51,584 nucleotides of DNA from contig NZ_LQPT01000121.1 of assembly GCF_002102355.1 (NCBI RefSeq), positions 1 through 51,584 of the forward strand, given 5' to 3'. Under the pieces are notes generated by a model. That model did no database searches and had not been told where the DNA came from. It was given only the letters and a program-made list of their open reading frames with translations. The DNA comes from Mycobacterium sherrisii. Its GTDB lineage: Bacteria > Actinomycetota > Actinomycetes > Mycobacteriales > Mycobacteriaceae. A program made the translations under genes and the position numbers. This document shows, in pieces, positions 1 through 8,278 of this stretch (positions within the stretch are counted from its first letter, which is position 1; every line of letters begins with the position of its first letter).

Positions 1-37
1 CTCGATGCAATCTGCCGATCTCAGCCCAATCCTCCAC
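1..37 (-). CDS. istA: IstA transposase of IS21 family, N-terminal fragment
   Basis: Only the first 12 codons lie in the window. From GTG at 37 they read VEDWAEIGRLHR, which matches the usual (M/V)EDWAEIRRLHR start of IS21-family IstA proteins. A strong Shine-Dalgarno tract (GAGGAGAAGGGAG in mRNA sense) precedes the start. IstA is the DDE transposase that works with the IstB ATPase. Whether it is intact cannot be judged here. Confidence 0.6.
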   Translation of the reverse strand, partial: MEDWAEIGRLHR

Positions 38-139
38 AGCCAACAACTCCCTTCTCCTCTCGGCTAGAAGCCGAGAATCGGTCGAAGGGGGTCAAAATTC
101 GGGCGTCGACACGGGGTCAGTTTTCAGACGACGCCGACA
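1..139 (-). mobile_element. IS21-family insertion sequence, terminal part (truncated by window edge)
   Basis: On the minus strand the outer end starts TGTCGGCGTCGTC at 139 and continues through two GGGGTCA-type blocks (plus strand 88-94 and 113-119, 25 bp apart). It then reaches a purine-rich ribosome site (about 50-64) and an istA-like start at 37. Multiple short repeats behind a TG end are typical of IS21-family termini. A CTCGGCT/AGCCGAG hairpin lies at about 58-75. The rest of the element is outside the window. The family call rests on the end structure plus the first residues of istA. Confidence 0.65.
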
Positions 140-239
140 CCTGCGAACTGCCGCGTGGCACGGTGACCATTTGTGCAATCGGTGCCGAACCACTGGGCGC
201 TGTTATAGTTCCAGGCTGAATCGGCTCTTACGGCGCGGT

Positions 240-1016
240 TTACGTGCGGCCCTGGCCCTGACCACATATTTTGGTGAGCCTTCGGGTGATGGCGCGCGGC
301 AACATTCTGCCGCCGGTGGTAAGCACCTTGTACTGCAGGCCCGGAACGATTACCACAGTGCCTTTCGTCGCCTGGGACAGGCATTGGTCGACGACGTCGT
401 CGATGTTCAGCCACATGAACGATGGCATTGATGACATCGTGATTCCGGCTCGTCGATGAAAATTGGTGTGCATATAGCCGGGGCACAGCGCGTGGACGCT
501 GACACCGGTGCCGGCCAATCCGCTGGAAAGTCCTTCGGAAAATGACACCACCCAAGCTTTGGACGCCGAATAGGTCGAGCCACGCTCGGGCAACAGACCA
601 GCGATGCTGCCAATGTTGATTACTGTGCCAGCCCCGGCCCGCAGCATGGCGGGCAGGGCGGCGCGGGTCAGGTGCATCACCGCGGTGACGTTGACGTCCA
701 GCTGGGTCTGCAGCAGGGCCGGGTCGATGGTCCAAAACTCGCCAGCAATACCAATACCAGCGTTGTTAACCAGCACCTGCACACCGTCGGCCAGCCGGCG
801 AGCTACCGCCGCCCGACCCTCCGGGTCGGCCAGGTCGGCCACCAGGACGTCACCGGCGACGCCGTGGGCCTGGTGCAATTTGTCGGCCACCCGCTGTAGT
901 TCGTCGGCCTCGGGTGCCACCAGCACGAGGTCATAGCCATCGGCGGCGTAGCGTCGAGCGAAGCCTTCACCGAGACCCGAGGTGGGTCCGGTGATCAGCG
1001 CGACGGGTCGGGGCAC
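240..1016 (-). CDS. Short-chain dehydrogenase/reductase
   Basis: 258 residues, typical for a classical SDR. The N-terminal TGPTSGLGEG cofactor loop, NNAG motif (residues about 88-91), catalytic Ser and YSASK (Tyr/Lys about 150-154) are all present, so the protein should be an active NAD(P)(H)-dependent oxidoreductase. Its ATG lies 22 bp inside the 3' end of the acyl-CoA synthetase gene, so the two are probably co-transcribed and act on one lipid or alcohol substrate. The substrate cannot be read from the sequence. The stop is 100 bp from the IS21-type end, so the IS appears to have landed just downstream without damaging the gene. Confidence 0.85.
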   Translation of the reverse strand: MPRPVALITGPTSGLGEGFARRYAADGYDLVLVAPEADELQRVADKLHQAHGVAGDVLVADLADPEGRAAVARRLADGVQVLVNNAGIGIAGEFWTIDPALLQTQLDVNVTAVMHLTRAALPAMLRAGAGTVINIGSIAGLLPERGSTYSASKAWVVSFSEGLSSGLAGTGVSVHALCPGYMHTNFHRRAGITMSSMPSFMWLNIDDVVDQCLSQATKGTVVIVPGLQYKVLTTGGRMLPRAITRRLTKICGQGQGRT

Positions 1017-2752
1017 GTCACACCTGCCGTACTTTTGGTTGGTTGGTTGTTGAGCAAGCGTTTGAGCACCTTCCCGCCCGTATTGCGGGGTAGTGCGTCG
1101 ACGAAGAACACATCGCGGGGGATCTTGAACCGAGCCAAGCGGTTTCGTATGTACTCTTTAACGTCGCGCTCGGTCAGCGACGTTCCCGGTCGTAGCACGA
1201 TATAGGCACGCAGGCGCTGCCCGAAGTCTTGATCCTCGACGCCGACCACCGCGGCGTCGAGGATTGCGGGATGATGCGCGAGCGCTTCCTCGACCTCACT
1301 CGGGTACACGTTTTCGCCCCCAGACGTGATCATCTCGTCTTCGCGCCCGTCGATGAACAGCCGGCCGGCTTCGTCGAAATGCCCGATGTCGCCGGTTGAC
1401 ATCAGGTCCTGGATGGACTCCTTGGTACCGCCGCCGGTGTACCCCTCGAAGGTCATTCCGTTGCCGACGAAGATCCGTCCGGATGTGCCGGGGGCAGCCT
1501 CGTGTCGATCGTCAGTGAAGATCTTGACGACAGACCCGGGCACTACGGCACCAACGCTTCCGGGTGCCACCACCAGGTCGGTGGGTGTGGCGATGGTGGC
1601 GTAGGCGACCTCGGTGGTTCCGTACATGTTGTAGACCACGGGTCCGAGTGCCTCGATCGCGCGGAGGGCCAGCGCGCCGCTGAGCTGAGATCCGCCGACG
1701 AACACGATGCGCAACGTCGACAAATCGTGTGCGGCGAGGGCTTGGGGGCCCACGTCGAGGATGCGCTGCAGCATCGTGGGGACGACGATCATGGCGCTGG
1801 CGCGGTGCGTGGCGACGCTGGCCAGGGCTTGCTGAGGATCGAAGTGGCGACGTAGCACCAGAGTCGAGCCGAGCACCATGGCATACATCGCATGACTGAA
1901 GCCCATTGAATGACATAGCGGCACACAGCATTCGGTGACTTCCCGGCCGCGGAACGGCACCTTGCCGAGTAGGCCGCCGATAGGTATCAGCGAGTGAGGC
2001 TCGGATCGGGCGGCGCCCTTGGGAACACCGGTAGTGCCGCTGGTCGAAATGACGATTCTGGGGCGACCACCGGATGACGGCGGCGGACCGGGATCACCAT
2101 GCTCAATTAGCGACTCGAGGGTGTCGGGACCGTGCGATTCCGCCCATGCCCGAAACCGTCCCAGCCTCGGCCGGAGACCGTCGACGGCGGCGCCGTACGC
2201 CTCGTCGTAGACGAGTAGATCGACGCCCTCGCGGGACACCATCTCGGCCAGTTGCATGCCGCCGAAGCCCGTGTTGAGCAGCAAGATCGTGGCGCCGCAC
2301 TTGCCGGTGGCATACACCGTTTCGAGGAGGCCCCTGTGATTATCGGCCAGCACGGCCACACGGGCGCCGGGGCCAAGTCCGCGTTGCCGCCATTCGTTGG
2401 CCAAGGCGTTCGTCCGCTTGTCCAGGTCGCTGAAACTCAGCGCACCACGCTCATCGATCAACGCAGGTCGGTCGGGGTCTCGAGCCGCGGTGATAGCGGT
2501 CGCTGAGCCCAGTAGGCCGTACCGCGCCAGCGCCCGTGCCACGGACAACATTCGCGAGGGTGGAACCAAACGCAGGCCCCCGGACCGGGTAAACAACAGC
2601 AGCGACCAGGCCTCCAAGCCCAGGCGCCTGACGAATTTCCCCGTGACCGTCTGCACTTTGTCCCTTACCTGCTCAATGCCGATTTGGCAGCATCCCGACA
2701 TGTCGAGCCTGCCGCCACGGTCGGGCCGAGAATAAGGGCGCAACGCCACCAT
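995..2752 (-). CDS. FadD-type acyl-CoA/acyl-AMP synthetase
   Basis: ANL-superfamily adenylating enzyme of up to 585 residues. The P-loop TSGTTGVPKG, the YNMYGTTEV motif, the hinge region GREDEMITSGGENVYPSEVE and the C-terminal PRNTGGKVLKR with the catalytic lysine are all seen. It should activate a fatty or related acid with ATP and, with CoA, yield the thioester. Mycobacterial FadD proteins of this kind feed beta-oxidation or lipid synthesis. Which FadD it corresponds to is uncertain; FadD12-like is a guess. The ATG at 2752 gives a long N-terminus, and ATG 2701 or a later GTG are alternatives. It heads a two-gene operon with the SDR. Confidence 0.85.
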   Translation of the reverse strand: MVALRPYSRPDRGGRLDMSGCCQIGIEQVRDKVQTVTGKFVRRLGLEAWSLLLFTRSGGLRLVPPSRMLSVARALARYGLLGSATAITAARDPDRPALIDERGALSFSDLDKRTNALANEWRQRGLGPGARVAVLADNHRGLLETVYATGKCGATILLLNTGFGGMQLAEMVSREGVDLLVYDEAYGAAVDGLRPRLGRFRAWAESHGPDTLESLIEHGDPGPPPSSGGRPRIVISTSGTTGVPKGAARSEPHSLIPIGGLLGKVPFRGREVTECCVPLCHSMGFSHAMYAMVLGSTLVLRRHFDPQQALASVATHRASAMIVVPTMLQRILDVGPQALAAHDLSTLRIVFVGGSQLSGALALRAIEALGPVVYNMYGTTEVAYATIATPTDLVVAPGSVGAVVPGSVVKIFTDDRHEAAPGTSGRIFVGNGMTFEGYTGGGTKESIQDLMSTGDIGHFDEAGRLFIDGREDEMITSGGENVYPSEVEEALAHHPAILDAAVVGVEDQDFGQRLRAYIVLRPGTSLTERDVKEYIRNRLARFKIPRDVFFVDALPRNTGGKVLKRLLNNQPTKSTAGVTCPDPSR

Positions 2753-3077
2753 GGTGGGGGTCTTTGGTCACCGTTGTTGCGCTGGCCAACAACTGACATG
2801 TAGAAACCATTTGTCAATGGGACAGGTGAAAGCGGGGCCCCGGTTTGGCCGGGACTTTCGTTAGATCGGGTGTCAGTCGGTGCCGATGGTTCGGTGCGAA
2901 CGGTGGCTACGTCTCGAGCGACGGGCGTCCTATTGGCGATCTGTCGAACCCTGTTGTGGCTCATAGTAGTAACGCAAATCCGGTTCGCCTAGCGGGCCGA
3001 GTCCGATCAAGCCTGGATTAGCTGGATTACTTTCTGCTGCTGTCCAGCTTCATGCTCGGGGCGGCGACCACCACTAG
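2753..3077. other. Non-coding region with the 3' remnant of a gene
   Basis: No intact gene is seen between the FadD start and the repeat. On the plus strand a short open stretch (3022-3120, after TAG at 3019-3021) encodes a hydrophobic segment followed by TYLHLDRRAVLD and a TAG stop. It looks like the C-terminus of a membrane protein whose 5' part is gone. The last 43 bp of this remnant form the left copy of the direct repeat found again at 7150. Confidence 0.45.
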
Positions 3078-3120
3078 CACGTATCTGCACCTGGACCGGC
3101 GGGCCGTCCTCGACTAGTGC
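3078..3120 (+). repeat. 43-bp direct repeat, left copy
   Basis: This stretch matches 7150-7192 at 41 of 43 positions (C/T and G/A differences at the 14th and 24th bases). Both copies read, in one plus-strand frame, TYLHLDR(R/Q)AVLD followed by TAG, so each is the 3' end of the same gene. Sequence similarity stops sharply after the TAGTGC end. Confidence 0.9.
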
Positions 3121-3262
3121 GTCCTGCGTTCCCCATCAGGGCTTGGACGGCGTTCAAGTCTTGGGCGTACTGACGTCCGCGATGTGGGCATCCCCCGCAA
3201 GTCCGTGAACGGTCTGGGTATTGTCGGCACATCTCGGTTAGCACGACAGCGGGGTCCAGAAT

Positions 3263-4879
3263 CTACCGACCGTCCCAGCTCTGTGGCAGCATCGGCATAC
3301 CGGCGCCGTCGCCGGATTCCTTGCCGGACAACGGGTTCAGGCCCGCCGCACGCACCTCGGGCTTGGGTAGCGTCCCAGTGAAGCCTTGTGTCGAGCCCCC
3401 GGAGTCCGAGGGCAGACACCGACTCGGCGATGCTGATGCAACCGCATCACAGCCTTCATCGGCTTCGATGAATTCGTAGCGGTATCCGGGGTCTACGACC
3501 GATCGCGGACGCCTGCGGGAGGGCCTCTGCGCCTGCTGCGACGCAACTAGGCCGGTCGGCGATGCTGCGGGCCGTGTGGCACGTACCCCGCTTCTGGTCT
3601 GGGTTTGCGCCTTCGATTCCATTCCGAGGCCGAGCACGCCCACCATGTAGCCGAAGCCCTCGGCTCCGGTGACCGGGGCCGGGGGTATGGGCGGAGTCGC
3701 TGGCGGCGCCATCGCGGAGGCCACTGGCGCCGGGGTCGACGCCACCGATGTCGCCGGCGCCACCGGACTGGTCGGGGACATGGGCGCCGCCGCGGGAGCG
3801 GGCGACACCACCGGGGCTTGCACGCCGACCCCGGCGGGCTGCGGAAGTGCAGCAGGAGCGGGGCCGCTTGCCGGTGCGGCCATCCCGGTCAACCCCGCCA
3901 GACCGGCCAGGCCTGCCAGGCCTGTGATGGACAGGCTCAAGCCGACCTGCAGCAGCAGCGGCAGCTCCTGAAGAAGAAAGCGCAGCGTCCGGAGGGTCCA
4001 GTTGACGACGCGATAGAGCTGCCACTCGATGAAATAGGTGATCAGCGCCGGGAACTGGGACGGATTGAGCAGACCCGAGAGGTTCTGCTCGAGCCAGGAT
4101 ATGGCCTGAGTATTGCCGCTGAAAAAGTTCGACAGGTTCTCCAAATACTGCAATGGGCTCCAGTTGGACTGGCCCTGACCGGGAATCTGCTCACCGTCGG
4201 GCCCGAACAGCATTTCCCAGATCTCCTCGGGAGTGGGCAGCTGGAAGGACCCCGTACCGCCGCCGCCACCCGCTCCGGTCCCACCGCCGGCGCCGGTCCC
4301 CTTTCCGCCTCCGGTACCGGTCCCGGCCCCTGTTCCCGAACCGCTGCCCGCCTTGCCGCCGGTGCCCGCGCCGGCGGCGCTGCTGAACTGCACCGCTTCG
4401 GTCGTCGCCTGGTAGGTGGTCATGGTGGTGGCCGCCTGAGTCCACATCCGCGCGTAGTCGGCCTCGTTGAGCGCGATCGGAATGGTGTTGACGCCAAAGA
4501 AATTCGTGGCCACCAAAGCCGCGTGGGCCGCATGATTGGCGGCCAGTTCCGGCAGCGTCGGCATCGCAGCCAGTGCGGCGGTGTACGCGCTAGCTACCCC
4601 GTGATGTTGGGCGGCCGCCTCGGCGCTCAACGCGCCTGCCAGCTGTAGCCACGCCAGATATGGCATGTGGGCGGCGACGTACCTGTCGGCGGTCGGGCCA
4701 TCCCAGATCTGCACCGACCCGCTCAACACGGCTGTCAATTCCGTTGCCGCCGAATCGTATTGGGTGCTCAATGACGTCCATGTCGCTGCGGCCGCCAACA
4801 ACGGGCCCGGCCCCGGGCCGCTGCTCAGCAGTGTCGAGTGCACTTCTGGCGGAAGGGCCATCCACACCGGCGCGGTCAT
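3263..4879 (-). CDS. PPE family protein, PPW subgroup (PPE4/PPE20-like)
   Basis: 538 residues. The N-terminal about 175 residues are a PPE domain starting [15 protein letters not shown], with the W-x-G helix-turn ([10 protein letters not shown]) and the [17 protein letters not shown] block that is also found in PPE4 of the ESX-3 locus. A Gly/Thr/Ser-rich linker (about 170-215) and a hydrophobic middle with [10 protein letters not shown] repeats follow. The C-terminus has the PPW signatures GFTGT and PMLPQSW. It lies 2 bp after the partner PE gene, the usual arrangement for a secreted PE/PPE heterodimer. PE5/PPE4-type pairs are exported by ESX-3 and linked to metal uptake. No esx or ecc gene is nearby. 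Confidence 0.9.
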
Positions 4880-4881
4880 CG

Positions 4882-5187
4882 TCAGCTTGCGCCCAGATAT
4901 GTCGACGCGGCTGCCGCATCGCCGGCGACATAGTTGACGCCGGCGAGACTCACCCCCAACCCGGCCCGCCCCAAGACTTCAACACCCTTGGCCGCCGCGG
5001 CTGAATGCTGACTGCCGCGTTCGCTGAACACCGCCGCGGCCGCCAGTGAAACCGGATCGGCCGCTGGCGGAACCACCACCGAGACCACCGGGGCCGCGGC
5101 TGCATGCGCCGCCGCCAATTGAGCGGTGATCGCGTCGACCGCCGCGCTTGCCGCGACCAGCCCCTCGGGAATAACACGCAGCGTCAT
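4882..5187 (-). CDS. PE family protein, PE5/PE15-like
   Basis: 101 residues: a bare PE domain with no C-terminal extension. It begins [20 protein letters not shown], nearly the start of PE5 from ESX-3 (MTLRVVPEGL...), and carries the [14 protein letters not shown] segment. The C-terminal [13 protein letters not shown] fits the YxxxD/E secretion signal. The ATG at 5187 overlaps the stop of the upstream membrane-protein gene as ATGA, so translation is probably coupled. It should form a helical-bundle dimer with the downstream PPE. An upstream extension to 5373 in the same frame lacks PE similarity and was rejected. Confidence 0.92.
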
Positions 5188-5765
5188 AACGGCCGCTTTC
5201 TGTATCGGCTTCCGGCAAAGAATTCGGCGACCCGAACCGGCAGCCGCCGACTTACACAACCCGCGACCAGCCAGGCGAGCAGGCCGGCGACGAACCCGAA
5301 AATTAGATGCCAGCCGGCCTTCTCCAGCATCTCGTTCGATGCCCAGGCTGACAGGCTGCCTGCGGAGCGCCACGAAAGCATTGAACTGGCAAGCGCGACA
5401 AGATTAATGGGCGCGGCCGCCACCACCAGCAACCATCGGTGCACCCACACCACGGGGAGGGACGCCACGGCATACAGCAACACGGCGCCGGCCACATAAC
5501 GACTGCTCCACAACGGATCGCTCAACCCATGCATTGGCAACGCCGCGATCGATGACGCCGCACCGACCGCCAACACCGTCTCACGCCGCTCTGTCACCAG
5601 CGCAACCGCCACCAACATGGTCACCCAGATCAATCCACGATGTCCCGGCAGACCCAACGGAATCCGGAGATCCGTAGAGGCTACGACGACGGCGACCGCC
5701 AGCAGCGGGAACGCCACCTCCCGGACGACACTCAGCCGGTCCGCCGGTCGCTGGATCACGGTCAC
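5184..5765 (-). CDS. Integral membrane protein of unknown function, first gene of the PE/PPE operon
   Basis: 193 residues from GTG 5765. It has about five hydrophobic segments (for example [74 protein letters not shown]) and a basic C-terminal tail. No known family was recognised. The TGA overlaps the PE start (ATGA), so the three genes look like one translationally coupled unit. This suggests the membrane protein works with, or is made together with, the PE/PPE pair. A TTG at 5786 is possible, but GTG 5765 leaves the palindrome at 5776-5792 upstream, where an operator would sit. Confidence 0.7.
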
Positions 5766-5775
5766 GCGGCAATCA

Positions 5776-5792
5776 TAAATCTTCAAGATTTA
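5776..5792. promoter_or_regulatory. 17-bp perfect palindrome between divergent units, candidate operator
   Basis: TAAATCTTCAAGATTTA has 8-bp perfect arms around a single central C. It is AT-rich in a GC-rich context. It lies 10 bp upstream of the GTG start of the membrane-PE-PPE unit and upstream of the opposite lipoprotein/GIDDTD unit, so one regulator could control both. It does not resemble the IdeR or Zur boxes I know. The size would suit an ArsR, MarR or GntR-type dimer, but none is encoded nearby. Confidence 0.55.
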
Positions 5793-5881
5793 CACTGATC
5801 CGCATCTACGGCGTATTCACAGGACAGGATCCGCTAATTCGCAGCAATAGACGATGGTTTCGGGCGATTGCGGTTCTGGCC

Positions 5882-6262
5882 ATGGGCACCGGGCTCGCCG
5901 CCTGCGGCGCGTCAGAGACCGAGGGTCAACTGTTTGTGCAGGAGAATCACCAAGTGCTGCAACGATTCACCATTTCGCAGCTGCAGCAGCTCCCTCAGCG
6001 GGAGGTCACGACGGCGCAATCACACGGCGCACAGGTCCAGAAGGGGCCCAGCGTGCAATCGATCCTCGATGCCGCGGGCGCGACCGGCGTCATCGCGGTG
6101 CGGGTGGAAGGCCGCGACCCGGCCCAGACCCTGGCGGCCAGCCAGCTCGACGATCAGACCATCCTCGGCTTCACCAAACGCAACACTCTCAAGCTCACCG
6201 GTGCAAAGATCGGCCGTGATCGGTGGGTACGCGATGTCACCGACCTGGTGATCAACCCATGA
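5882..6262 (+). CDS. Putative lipoprotein with a molybdopterin-oxidoreductase-like fold
   Basis: The mature part (about 118 residues) begins at a lipobox-like LAAC followed by GASETEG. It contains FTISQLQQLPQREVTT and GPSVQSILDAAGA, a pattern seen in small periplasmic proteins related to the sulfite-oxidase molybdopterin domain. It is too short to bind the cofactor as a full domain. ATG 5882 leaves only seven residues before the Cys. The frame is open far upstream, and RRWFRAIAVLAMGTGLAAC would be a good signal peptide, but no ATG, GTG or TTG was found there. A CTG (5795) or ATT (5837) start, or a sequence problem, is possible. The TGA overlaps the next ATG. Confidence 0.6.
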   Translation: MGTGLAACGASETEGQLFVQENHQVLQRFTISQLQQLPQREVTTAQSHGAQVQKGPSVQSILDAAGATGVIAVRVEGRDPAQTLAASQLDDQTILGFTKRNTLKLTGAKIGRDRWVRDVTDLVINP

Positions 6263-7047
6263 CCGGCGGCACCGCCCTGGCCGGTGTGGATCTGCTCGTC
6301 GGCATCGACGACACCGACAACCCCTATACGCCGGGCACGGGTCGGCGAGCCCGGGCTCTGCTCCACGAGCTGCAGGCCGCGGGCCTCGGCTCCCCCGCGG
6401 GCGCCACCCGCCACCAGCTGCTCGTCGACGACCGCATCGCGTACACTTCTCACAACTCGAGCGCATGCCTTGCGTGGCGGAGCCCCGATGGCGATCCGCA
6501 CGCGGTGCGAACCGCGATCATCGAACTCGCCGGACAATTCTTGGAACGGGTATGCCCTCCCGATGCCGACCCCGGCCTTGCCGTCATCGTTGCAAGCGAA
6601 CTTTCCGATGCCGCGCCACGACTGATCGAATTCGGTCGCCGCGCCAAGCAAGAAGTGTTGCATCCCAACGAAGCCCCTGAGCTCGGGGCGGCGCTCGGCG
6701 TGCATCTGTCCGGACACGGCGGCACCCGCGAGGGCATGACCGGCGCACTCGCCGCGGTCGGATTGCACCTGTCCGGCAACGACGGGCTGTTCATCACTTT
6801 GCCCGGCATCCGCAAACTGCCCGACCAAGCCACCGTCGAGACGGTTTTCGCCATGACACCCATCGACCTCGCTCGCGACGCGATGCACCGCCAGCCCCGC
6901 AGCGGCGAAGTGATCGAACTGGGCGACTGGGTGCGTCCGGTGCTGCTCGACGGACAGGCAGTATTGCTCCTCGAACCGCCCGGTCAGCAGGCCGACGGAA
7001 GTAGAACATGGCGCACAGCGCCACGCGCGGTGGTCAAGCAGTACTGA
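6259..7047 (+). CDS. GIDDTD-motif protein related to the TiaS N-terminal domain
   Basis: 262 residues from ATG 6259, overlapping the previous stop as ATGA. The N-terminus reads DLLVGIDDTDNPYTPGTGRRA and then TRHQLLVDDRIAYTSHNSSACL. The GIDDTD motif is the hallmark of archaeal TiaS (tRNA-Ile2 agmatinylcytidine synthetase). The zinc-ribbon and OB-fold parts of full-length TiaS are absent. A Gly/His-rich middle (HLSGHGGTREGMTGALAAVGLHLSG split over about 135-160) could form a nucleotide site. The substrate is unknown, and a tRNA role is doubtful because bacteria use TilS for this modification. Coupling to a lipoprotein gene is unusual for an RNA enzyme. Confidence 0.65.
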   Translation: MTGGTALAGVDLLVGIDDTDNPYTPGTGRRARALLHELQAAGLGSPAGATRHQLLVDDRIAYTSHNSSACLAWRSPDGDPHAVRTAIIELAGQFLERVCPPDADPGLAVIVASELSDAAPRLIEFGRRAKQEVLHPNEAPELGAALGVHLSGHGGTREGMTGALAAVGLHLSGNDGLFITLPGIRKLPDQATVETVFAMTPIDLARDAMHRQPRSGEVIELGDWVRPVLLDGQAVLLLEPPGQQADGSRTWRTAPRAVVKQY

Positions 7048-7149
7048 CTCCGACGGCCACGTAAGCAGCAACGCGATTGGCATCGACAGATCGGTTCGGT
7101 CCGCACGCAATTGAGCTAGTAGCGGGGTGATTTGAGCGTTCACCGCCGT

Positions 7150-7192
7150 CACGTATCTGCACTTGGACCGGCAGGCCGTCCTCGACTAGTGC
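7150..7192 (+). repeat. 43-bp direct repeat, right copy
   Basis: This is the second copy of 3078-3120 (41/43 identical). In its frame a TGA stands five codons upstream of the repeat, so only the last codons TYLHLDRQAVLD and the TAG remain. It ends 16 bp before the fbpC terminator hairpin. In M. tuberculosis the gene next to fbpC on this side (Rv0128) is a membrane protein reading towards fbpC. The repeat may be the relic of that gene's 3' end. Confidence 0.9.
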
Positions 7193-7207
7193 CGGCGCCG
7201 AAAAGAA

Positions 7208-7250
7208 AGCATCGGCAGCAGCGCTTGACCGGTGCGCTGCTGCCGATGCT
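7208..7250 (-). terminator. Intrinsic terminator of fbpC
   Basis: AGCATCGGCAGCAGCGC (7208-7224) pairs perfectly with 7234-7250 (17 bp, 9-nt loop). Read on the minus strand, the hairpin is followed by TTTCTTTT, a real U-tract, which is rare in mycobacteria. It starts 11 bp after the fbpC stop. It also insulates fbpC from the 4-kb module. Confidence 0.85.
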
Positions 7251-7261
7251 CGTTCCGGGTG

Positions 7262-8278
<1,017 letters not shown>

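Follow-up and report, generated by a model that had tools for sequence, protein, structure and literature searches.

Copies of a DUF1275 gene 3' end around a PE/PPE module beside fbpC in Mycobacterium sherrisii

Repeat copies and genes at the locus

We analyzed contig NZ_LQPT01000121.1 of Mycobacterium sherrisii (C121), whose whole length of 51,584 bases is referred to as the window, and which belongs to a draft genome (G000) of 5.56 Mb and 128 contigs. Toward its left end, a module of five genes, including one PE and one PPE gene, lies beside an fbpC-type gene and between two plus-strand copies of a 43-bp sequence (3078..3120 and 7150..7192), identified below as a DUF1275 3' end. Recalculation revealed that the two copies, both read on one strand, are identical at 41 of 43 bases, and that both are translated to TYLHLDR(R/Q)AVLD followed by TAG, as the first-pass annotation of this DNA had reported; its open frame for the left copy also held, although with 31 open codons instead of about 33, and the right copy has 17. 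The repeat search returned a slightly longer direct pair of 57 nucleotides (3064-3120 and 7136-7192; 86% identity, spacing 4072). For a pair such as the two 43-mers, the chance expectation in the window is about 1e-11 under independent bases, and neither strand of the window has another copy of the 43-mer at 14 or fewer mismatches.

Between the repeats, the genes are arranged as two divergent units, again in agreement with that annotation. The minus-strand unit comprises a PPE protein of the PPE-PPW type (538 amino acids; 3263..4879; Pfam PPE and PPE-PPW), a PE protein (101 amino acids; 4882..5187; Pfam PE) and a 200-amino-acid protein that looks membrane-bound (5184..5786), which has no Pfam or NCBIfam match and is found beside PE in relatives. 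The plus-strand unit encodes a 126-amino-acid protein with a lipoprotein-like start, judged by eye (5882..6262; no Pfam or NCBIfam match, conserved in relatives), and a 262-amino-acid protein with weak similarity to TiaS (6259..7047; NCBIfam TiaS, E 2e-4, far below the cut-off). The latter protein begins with GIDDTD, and its weak likeness to the tRNA-Ile2 agmatinylcytidine synthetase TiaS is unexpected in a bacterium; a search of PDB gave no match at E 1. None of the five enclosed genes matches an integrase model, as had been noted before.

To the right of the module lies a minus-strand gene for a mycolyltransferase of the antigen 85 family (7262..8275; Pfam Esterase), which we take to be fbpC from synteny. 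An inverted repeat between the convergent genes (7208..7250, plus strand) is probably a shared terminator, since the same spot matches in relatives on both strands. A tRNA or other known RNA was considered as an integration target and dismissed, as none was found in the window.

The DUF1275 3' ends and the corresponding site in relatives

A search of the own genome with the repeat revealed, beyond short chance matches, the two window copies and one further copy on contig C94, so that a dispersed element, against which the first-pass annotation had proposed a check, could be set aside. The copy on C94 belongs to an intact gene for a DUF1275 membrane protein (C94:3826-4512; 228 amino acids, Pfam DUF1275), located behind a maltokinase-like gene that is presumably mak, as judged by synteny. 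This gene is whole, yet it now ends in foreign DNA. The left copy in the window is part of a longer plus-strand remnant (3015..3160), which matches the C94 gene in two blocks (3015-3066, 49 of 52 bases; 3061-3160, 90 of 100 bases); an in-frame deletion of 72 bp separates them, and the stop codon is at 3115-3117. Similarity between the remnant and C94 continues for 43 bp 3' of the stop (37 of 43 identical). These 43 bp do not follow DUF1275 in the genomes with a listed DUF1275 match, none of which extends beyond query position 690; they gave no match in the loci fetched from other genomes and no exact match among viral contigs.

The right copy (7141..7193, plus strand; 49 of 53 bases identical to C94) is of a different kind. 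The window DNA matches that of the six nearest relatives (G148, G202, G114, G254, G170 and G127) from 7141 or 7142 rightwards, through fbpC and beyond, and the right copy is therefore the native DUF1275 3' end, severed from its gene; in four more distant relatives the match begins between 7127 and 7206. Judged from these matches, the DNA to the left of 7141 is foreign to the fbpC-side location. The genome thus contains three 3' ends of the target gene in total (C94, 3015-3160 and 7141-7193), with the outer left end on a separate contig. The earlier bracket of 3078 and 7150 as the outer ends of the acquired DNA has to be abandoned, since the left copy is a remnant inside that DNA, whose outer left junction is found on C94.

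Comparison of the 43-bp copies with each other revealed one difference between the left copy and the intact gene, and two or three between the right copy and either of the other two; over 40 positions, the sister genome G127 differs from C94 at four, from the left copy at four and from the right copy at six. This divergence, together with the 90 of 100 matches of the left remnant to C94, argues against a chimeric contig, which we regard as hardly credible: the assembly is a draft of 128 contigs, but over 3 kb separate the break from the contig end, and a deletion peculiar to the left copy would not be expected if identical repeats had been misjoined.

The layout of the whole gene, a first insert, a 3' end, a second insert, a 3' end and the native flank matches that of tandem site-specific accretion in the sections of PMC5704250 consulted, and two decayed elements resembling cis-mobilizable elements (CIMEs), with attachment sites (att) kept and the integrase lost, may accordingly have come to lie in tandem at the DUF1275 3' end. 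Under this explanation, which we consider unlikely, the shared 43 bp past the stop would be the left arm of the element. The core of 43-53 bp falls within the 8-60 bp given for direct repeats of tyrosine recombinases in the same sections of PMC5704250, and C94 and the left copy are alike beyond this core. However, no integrase or transfer gene was found among the 12 open reading frames scanned in the left part of the window and C94, and the middle core is preceded by coding sequence: the left copy carries an upstream part of the gene with the 72-bp deletion, unlike a bare att core.

We examined the ancestral state of the site in relatives drawn from 297 genomes of the genus, 128 of which, the own genome included, contain a DNA match to the DUF1275 gene; 50 of the other 127 were surveyed (the 49 best-ranked and G127). 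DUF1275 faces fbpC in all 50, each with a single 3' end and with an apparently whole gene in all except G127, so that the repeat is indeed the end of the gene beside fbpC, as first proposed from the window. The gap between the two genes is 61-169 bp in 48 of them, including G127. Among 15 additional DUF1275 loci from the genomes of named relatives, several of which are also among the 50, 10 contain mak, DUF1275 and fbpC in a row. No island comparable to that of the own genome was seen at the DUF1275 3' end in the 50 relatives, which also speaks against accretion at a dedicated site. The first-pass annotation had named a dispersed repeat, or a module present in all close relatives with no empty site, as grounds against its proposal; the repeat is not dispersed, and the relatives have the empty site.

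The two remaining gaps are 1365 bp (G279) and 1238 bp (G181) long and hold an IS481-family transposase gene, in an element of this insertion sequence (IS) family with CTAG on either side; the insertion point is precisely the CTAG in the stop codon of DUF1275 (L154 and L156, respectively). The IS481 family probably prefers CTAG as a target. Such activity, or recombination between IS21 copies, might have broken the DUF1275-fbpC pair, with C94 located far from the window and the stubs being leftovers. We consider this rather improbable, because the three DUF1275 3' ends seen in the own genome have neither IS21 nor IS481 beside them, and an IS alone neither copies a gene 3' end nor imports a foreign module; the IS21 ends described below are in its favor.

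Two loci showed other alterations. DUF1275 of G127 (L157:7768-8124) has a large internal deletion, with query 247-554 of the gene lost, and its ABC permease gene is fragmented; we read both as gene decay in a 3.2-Mb genome. In L082 (1351-1638; G074:C124, at most 12 bases from the contig end), fbpC runs in frame into the last 42 DUF1275 residues with both genes on one strand, in contrast to their convergent arrangement in the 50 relatives, representing either an inversion junction or an assembly artefact.

Origin of the module and of the other acquired DNA

The module was compared with 14 loci of named relatives, some shortened by contig ends. The order of the five genes was kept in 10 of the 14, and both chromosomal neighbors (a methyltransferase gene to the one side, a TetR gene and mce genes to the other) in seven, indicating one common place; L058 keeps only the left flank and L060 only the right. 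The TetR neighbor gene was not found in the own genome, and a neighboring 261-amino-acid gene has a 74% match on its contig C60. The 43-bp sequence was found beside the module in none of the 14 loci at 11 or fewer mismatches, and a donor lacking the core is a further point against accretion, with the reservation that some loci are cut by contig ends. At 3172-3240, we observed a weak match (RKSV, by eye) to the methyltransferase gene located before the module in M. colombiense; it falls in the 3' end of that gene, within which the transferred DNA may thus seem to begin.

Nucleotide identity of the module was 88.1% to G320 and 86.4% to G284, whereas the core of these two genomes gave 81.5% and 81.1%, respectively. 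In a 12-row tree of the module, G000 fell in a clade with G320, G284, G099 and G302 with support of 100/100, the last two being taken as the M. colombiense assemblies E1334 and NS-7390, and was joined to G320 at 82/82 only. The core tree, built from fbpC and the adjoining ABC genes, grouped G000 with G127 and then with G148, G170, G202 and G114 (100/100), apart from the rows near M. colombiense. Approximately unbiased (AU) tests, for groups that were named only once the trees had been seen, rejected a clade of the nine Mycobacterium avium complex rows without G000 for the module (p 0.00027) and a grouping of G000 with the M. colombiense group for the core genes (p 9e-55). As the module is nested in the M. 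colombiense group and the core genes are not, these results indicate horizontal transfer, and the PE/PPE module appears to have been acquired from an M. colombiense-like relative. The 262-amino-acid gene, present in 37 of the 297 genomes including the own one, was not among the matches for the six nearest genomes, assuming that the same 297 genomes were used as in the DUF1275 survey. The cassette itself is already known in other mycobacteria, and it is its location beside fbpC that looks private to this lineage.

Mobile elements that might have carried the module were also considered. A phage origin was rejected, as no phage matched window 1-7200. A plasmid origin was likewise rejected: 68 plasmid records match this part but none covers most of it, and the 15 of these 68 that are listed match in PPE, short-chain dehydrogenase, acyl-CoA ligase, hypothetical protein and IS21 pieces.

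The acquired DNA exceeds the 4-kb module on both contigs. On the window side, it includes minus-strand genes for a short-chain dehydrogenase (240..1016; Pfam adh_short) and a FadD-like acyl-CoA ligase (995..2752; Pfam AMP-binding and AMP-binding_C; NCBIfam FadD2-like as best match, below the cut-off). This pair has nucleotide identity of 79% to G135 and 78% to G181, in both of which it is located elsewhere in the genome, in G135 at an unrelated place; the FadD part has 76% identity to G114, and the best matches in the remaining nearest relatives are far weaker. The foreign part of C94 contains an Rv2629-family gene (NCBIfam NF052289, above the cut-off), whose identity to the best genomes among the matches listed is 75% at most, a small gene, and part of an IS21 element. 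The G+C content is 63.5% in the dehydrogenase-FadD part and 62.3% in the C94 part, compared with 66.5-67.5% in native parts.

Proposed course of events and comparison with known systems

Taken together, foreign DNA probably entered at the DUF1275 3' end in two rounds of recombination, and the module probably belongs to the M. colombiense group by origin. The ancestral order would have been mak, DUF1275 and, after about 0.1 kb, fbpC, with DNA from elsewhere entering at the DUF1275 3' end in the lineage of the own genome. Incoming DNA bearing a copy of this 3' end may have recombined with the resident gene, and after each of two such rounds the gene would be whole at one edge of the insert, with a 3' stub at the opposite edge; the left remnant divides the acquired DNA of the window into the dehydrogenase-FadD part and the PE/PPE module. 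Two rounds at the gene 3' end fit best with three 3' ends that are separated by foreign DNA and are followed at one end by the native flank, and the similarity of the left remnant and C94 past the stop is as expected of two inserts with a common left edge. The outline of an insertion at a gene 3' end, as in the first-pass annotation, thus stands; a strict att site is not supported, given the lack of an integrase in the open reading frames scanned, of a core at the donor loci and of a comparable island in the 50 relatives, and neither is mobility.

Several points weigh against this course of events, the first being that C94 and the window are separate contigs. The window begins with the left end of an IS21-family element and the start of istA, cut by the contig end (1..139, minus strand; 92-94% identity to three complete IS21 copies at their left ends, and 93% to the annotated istA of an M. 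gallinarum plasmid). The right part of an IS21 is located at C94:1-1451, and complete copies in three other genomes contain both parts. The two contigs end in IS21 in the orientation required for a direct join, with about 635 bp missing in the middle if their ends form a single copy, and among the 40 of 186 candidates scored, only C94 has the right part. However, four further IS21 left ends are located at other contig ends, giving at least five in the assembly (C121, C126, C67, C57 and C88), and the 5-bp flanks differ (GCAGG vs GGTAC). The link between C94 and the window is accordingly putative. The differing flanks mean that a simple join via one IS21 failed the 5-bp duplication test, and that a composite spanning C94 and the window lacks a matching 5-bp target duplication; such flanks match in two of four complete IS21 copies of other genomes. 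A 4-bp match, ACCT, was rejected as a target duplication, as complete copies show 5-bp duplications and have other element ends. IS21 probably causes many of the breaks in the assembly. IS21 halves at the ends of both contigs, their unmatched flanks and the multiple left ends are also what a rearrangement by IS would leave, and are the points in favor of that explanation mentioned above.

The other points concern the inserts themselves. Upstream of the two copies, the sequences have little in common (score 21; shuffle mean 15.6, with 7 of 300 shuffles as high), which lends little support to two inserts with a common right edge; the same weak likeness of the right arms counts against accretion. 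The proposal leaves the 72-bp deletion in the left copy as an extra feature, the G+C content of the module (66.6%) equals that of the host, and the absence of the 262-amino-acid gene from the six nearest genomes depends on the assumed identity of the two 297-genome sets and includes G127, which is 92% complete. Homologous exchange, in addition, accounts for the stubs without an integrase but not for the source of the 43 bp past the stop. With this reservation, our guess is that a homologous exchange of the Campbell type during mycobacterial DNA transfer, perhaps a little short of an even chance, is somewhat likelier as the mechanism of entry than a dedicated integrase, which is doubtful.

The locus offers a tree-supported case in which a PE/PPE module moved in its entirety, divergent partner operon included, between slow-growing mycobacterial species to a new chromosomal place, and in which the transfer left readable footprints in the form of target 3'-end stubs. 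If the stubs are attachment sites, they would point to an unrecognized mycobacterial route for moving PE/PPE genes; that the DUF1275 3' end is the att site of an undescribed family of integrative elements that, in slow-growing mycobacteria, acquires and stacks chromosomal PE/PPE cassettes, with the 43 bp as the left arm site of the recombinase, is very unlikely. In the parts of PMC10654092 consulted, tyrosine integrases act at 23 of the 29 attB sites described in M. abscessus, with a tRNA or tmRNA gene overlapped by 16 of these 23, every attB site predicted for the other clades overlaps a gene for tRNA-Lys or tmRNA, and a DUF1275 attachment site is absent from the attB sites given.

Of the known systems compared, the IS481-family elements at CTAG share the location with our case, at the DUF1275 stop in G279 and G181, but none is present at the junctions seen in the own genome. 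CIMEs and tandem island accretion, as far as described in the sections of PMC5704250 consulted, resemble our locus in that copies of the target 3' end flank and separate two cargo segments, with the native flank on one side, the whole gene on the other and no recombinase of their own. Our locus differs from these in that no related integrase-bearing element was seen at the site, the cargo consists of ordinary chromosomal genes, the middle copy exceeds the core and has a deletion, and the donor is without repeats. Distributive conjugal transfer, a mosaic exchange between mycobacteria, is similar in that a genome receives pieces of another mycobacterial chromosome with no dedicated recombinase. 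Homologous replacement is expected to preserve chromosomal place, whereas the module here occupies another place than in the donor group.

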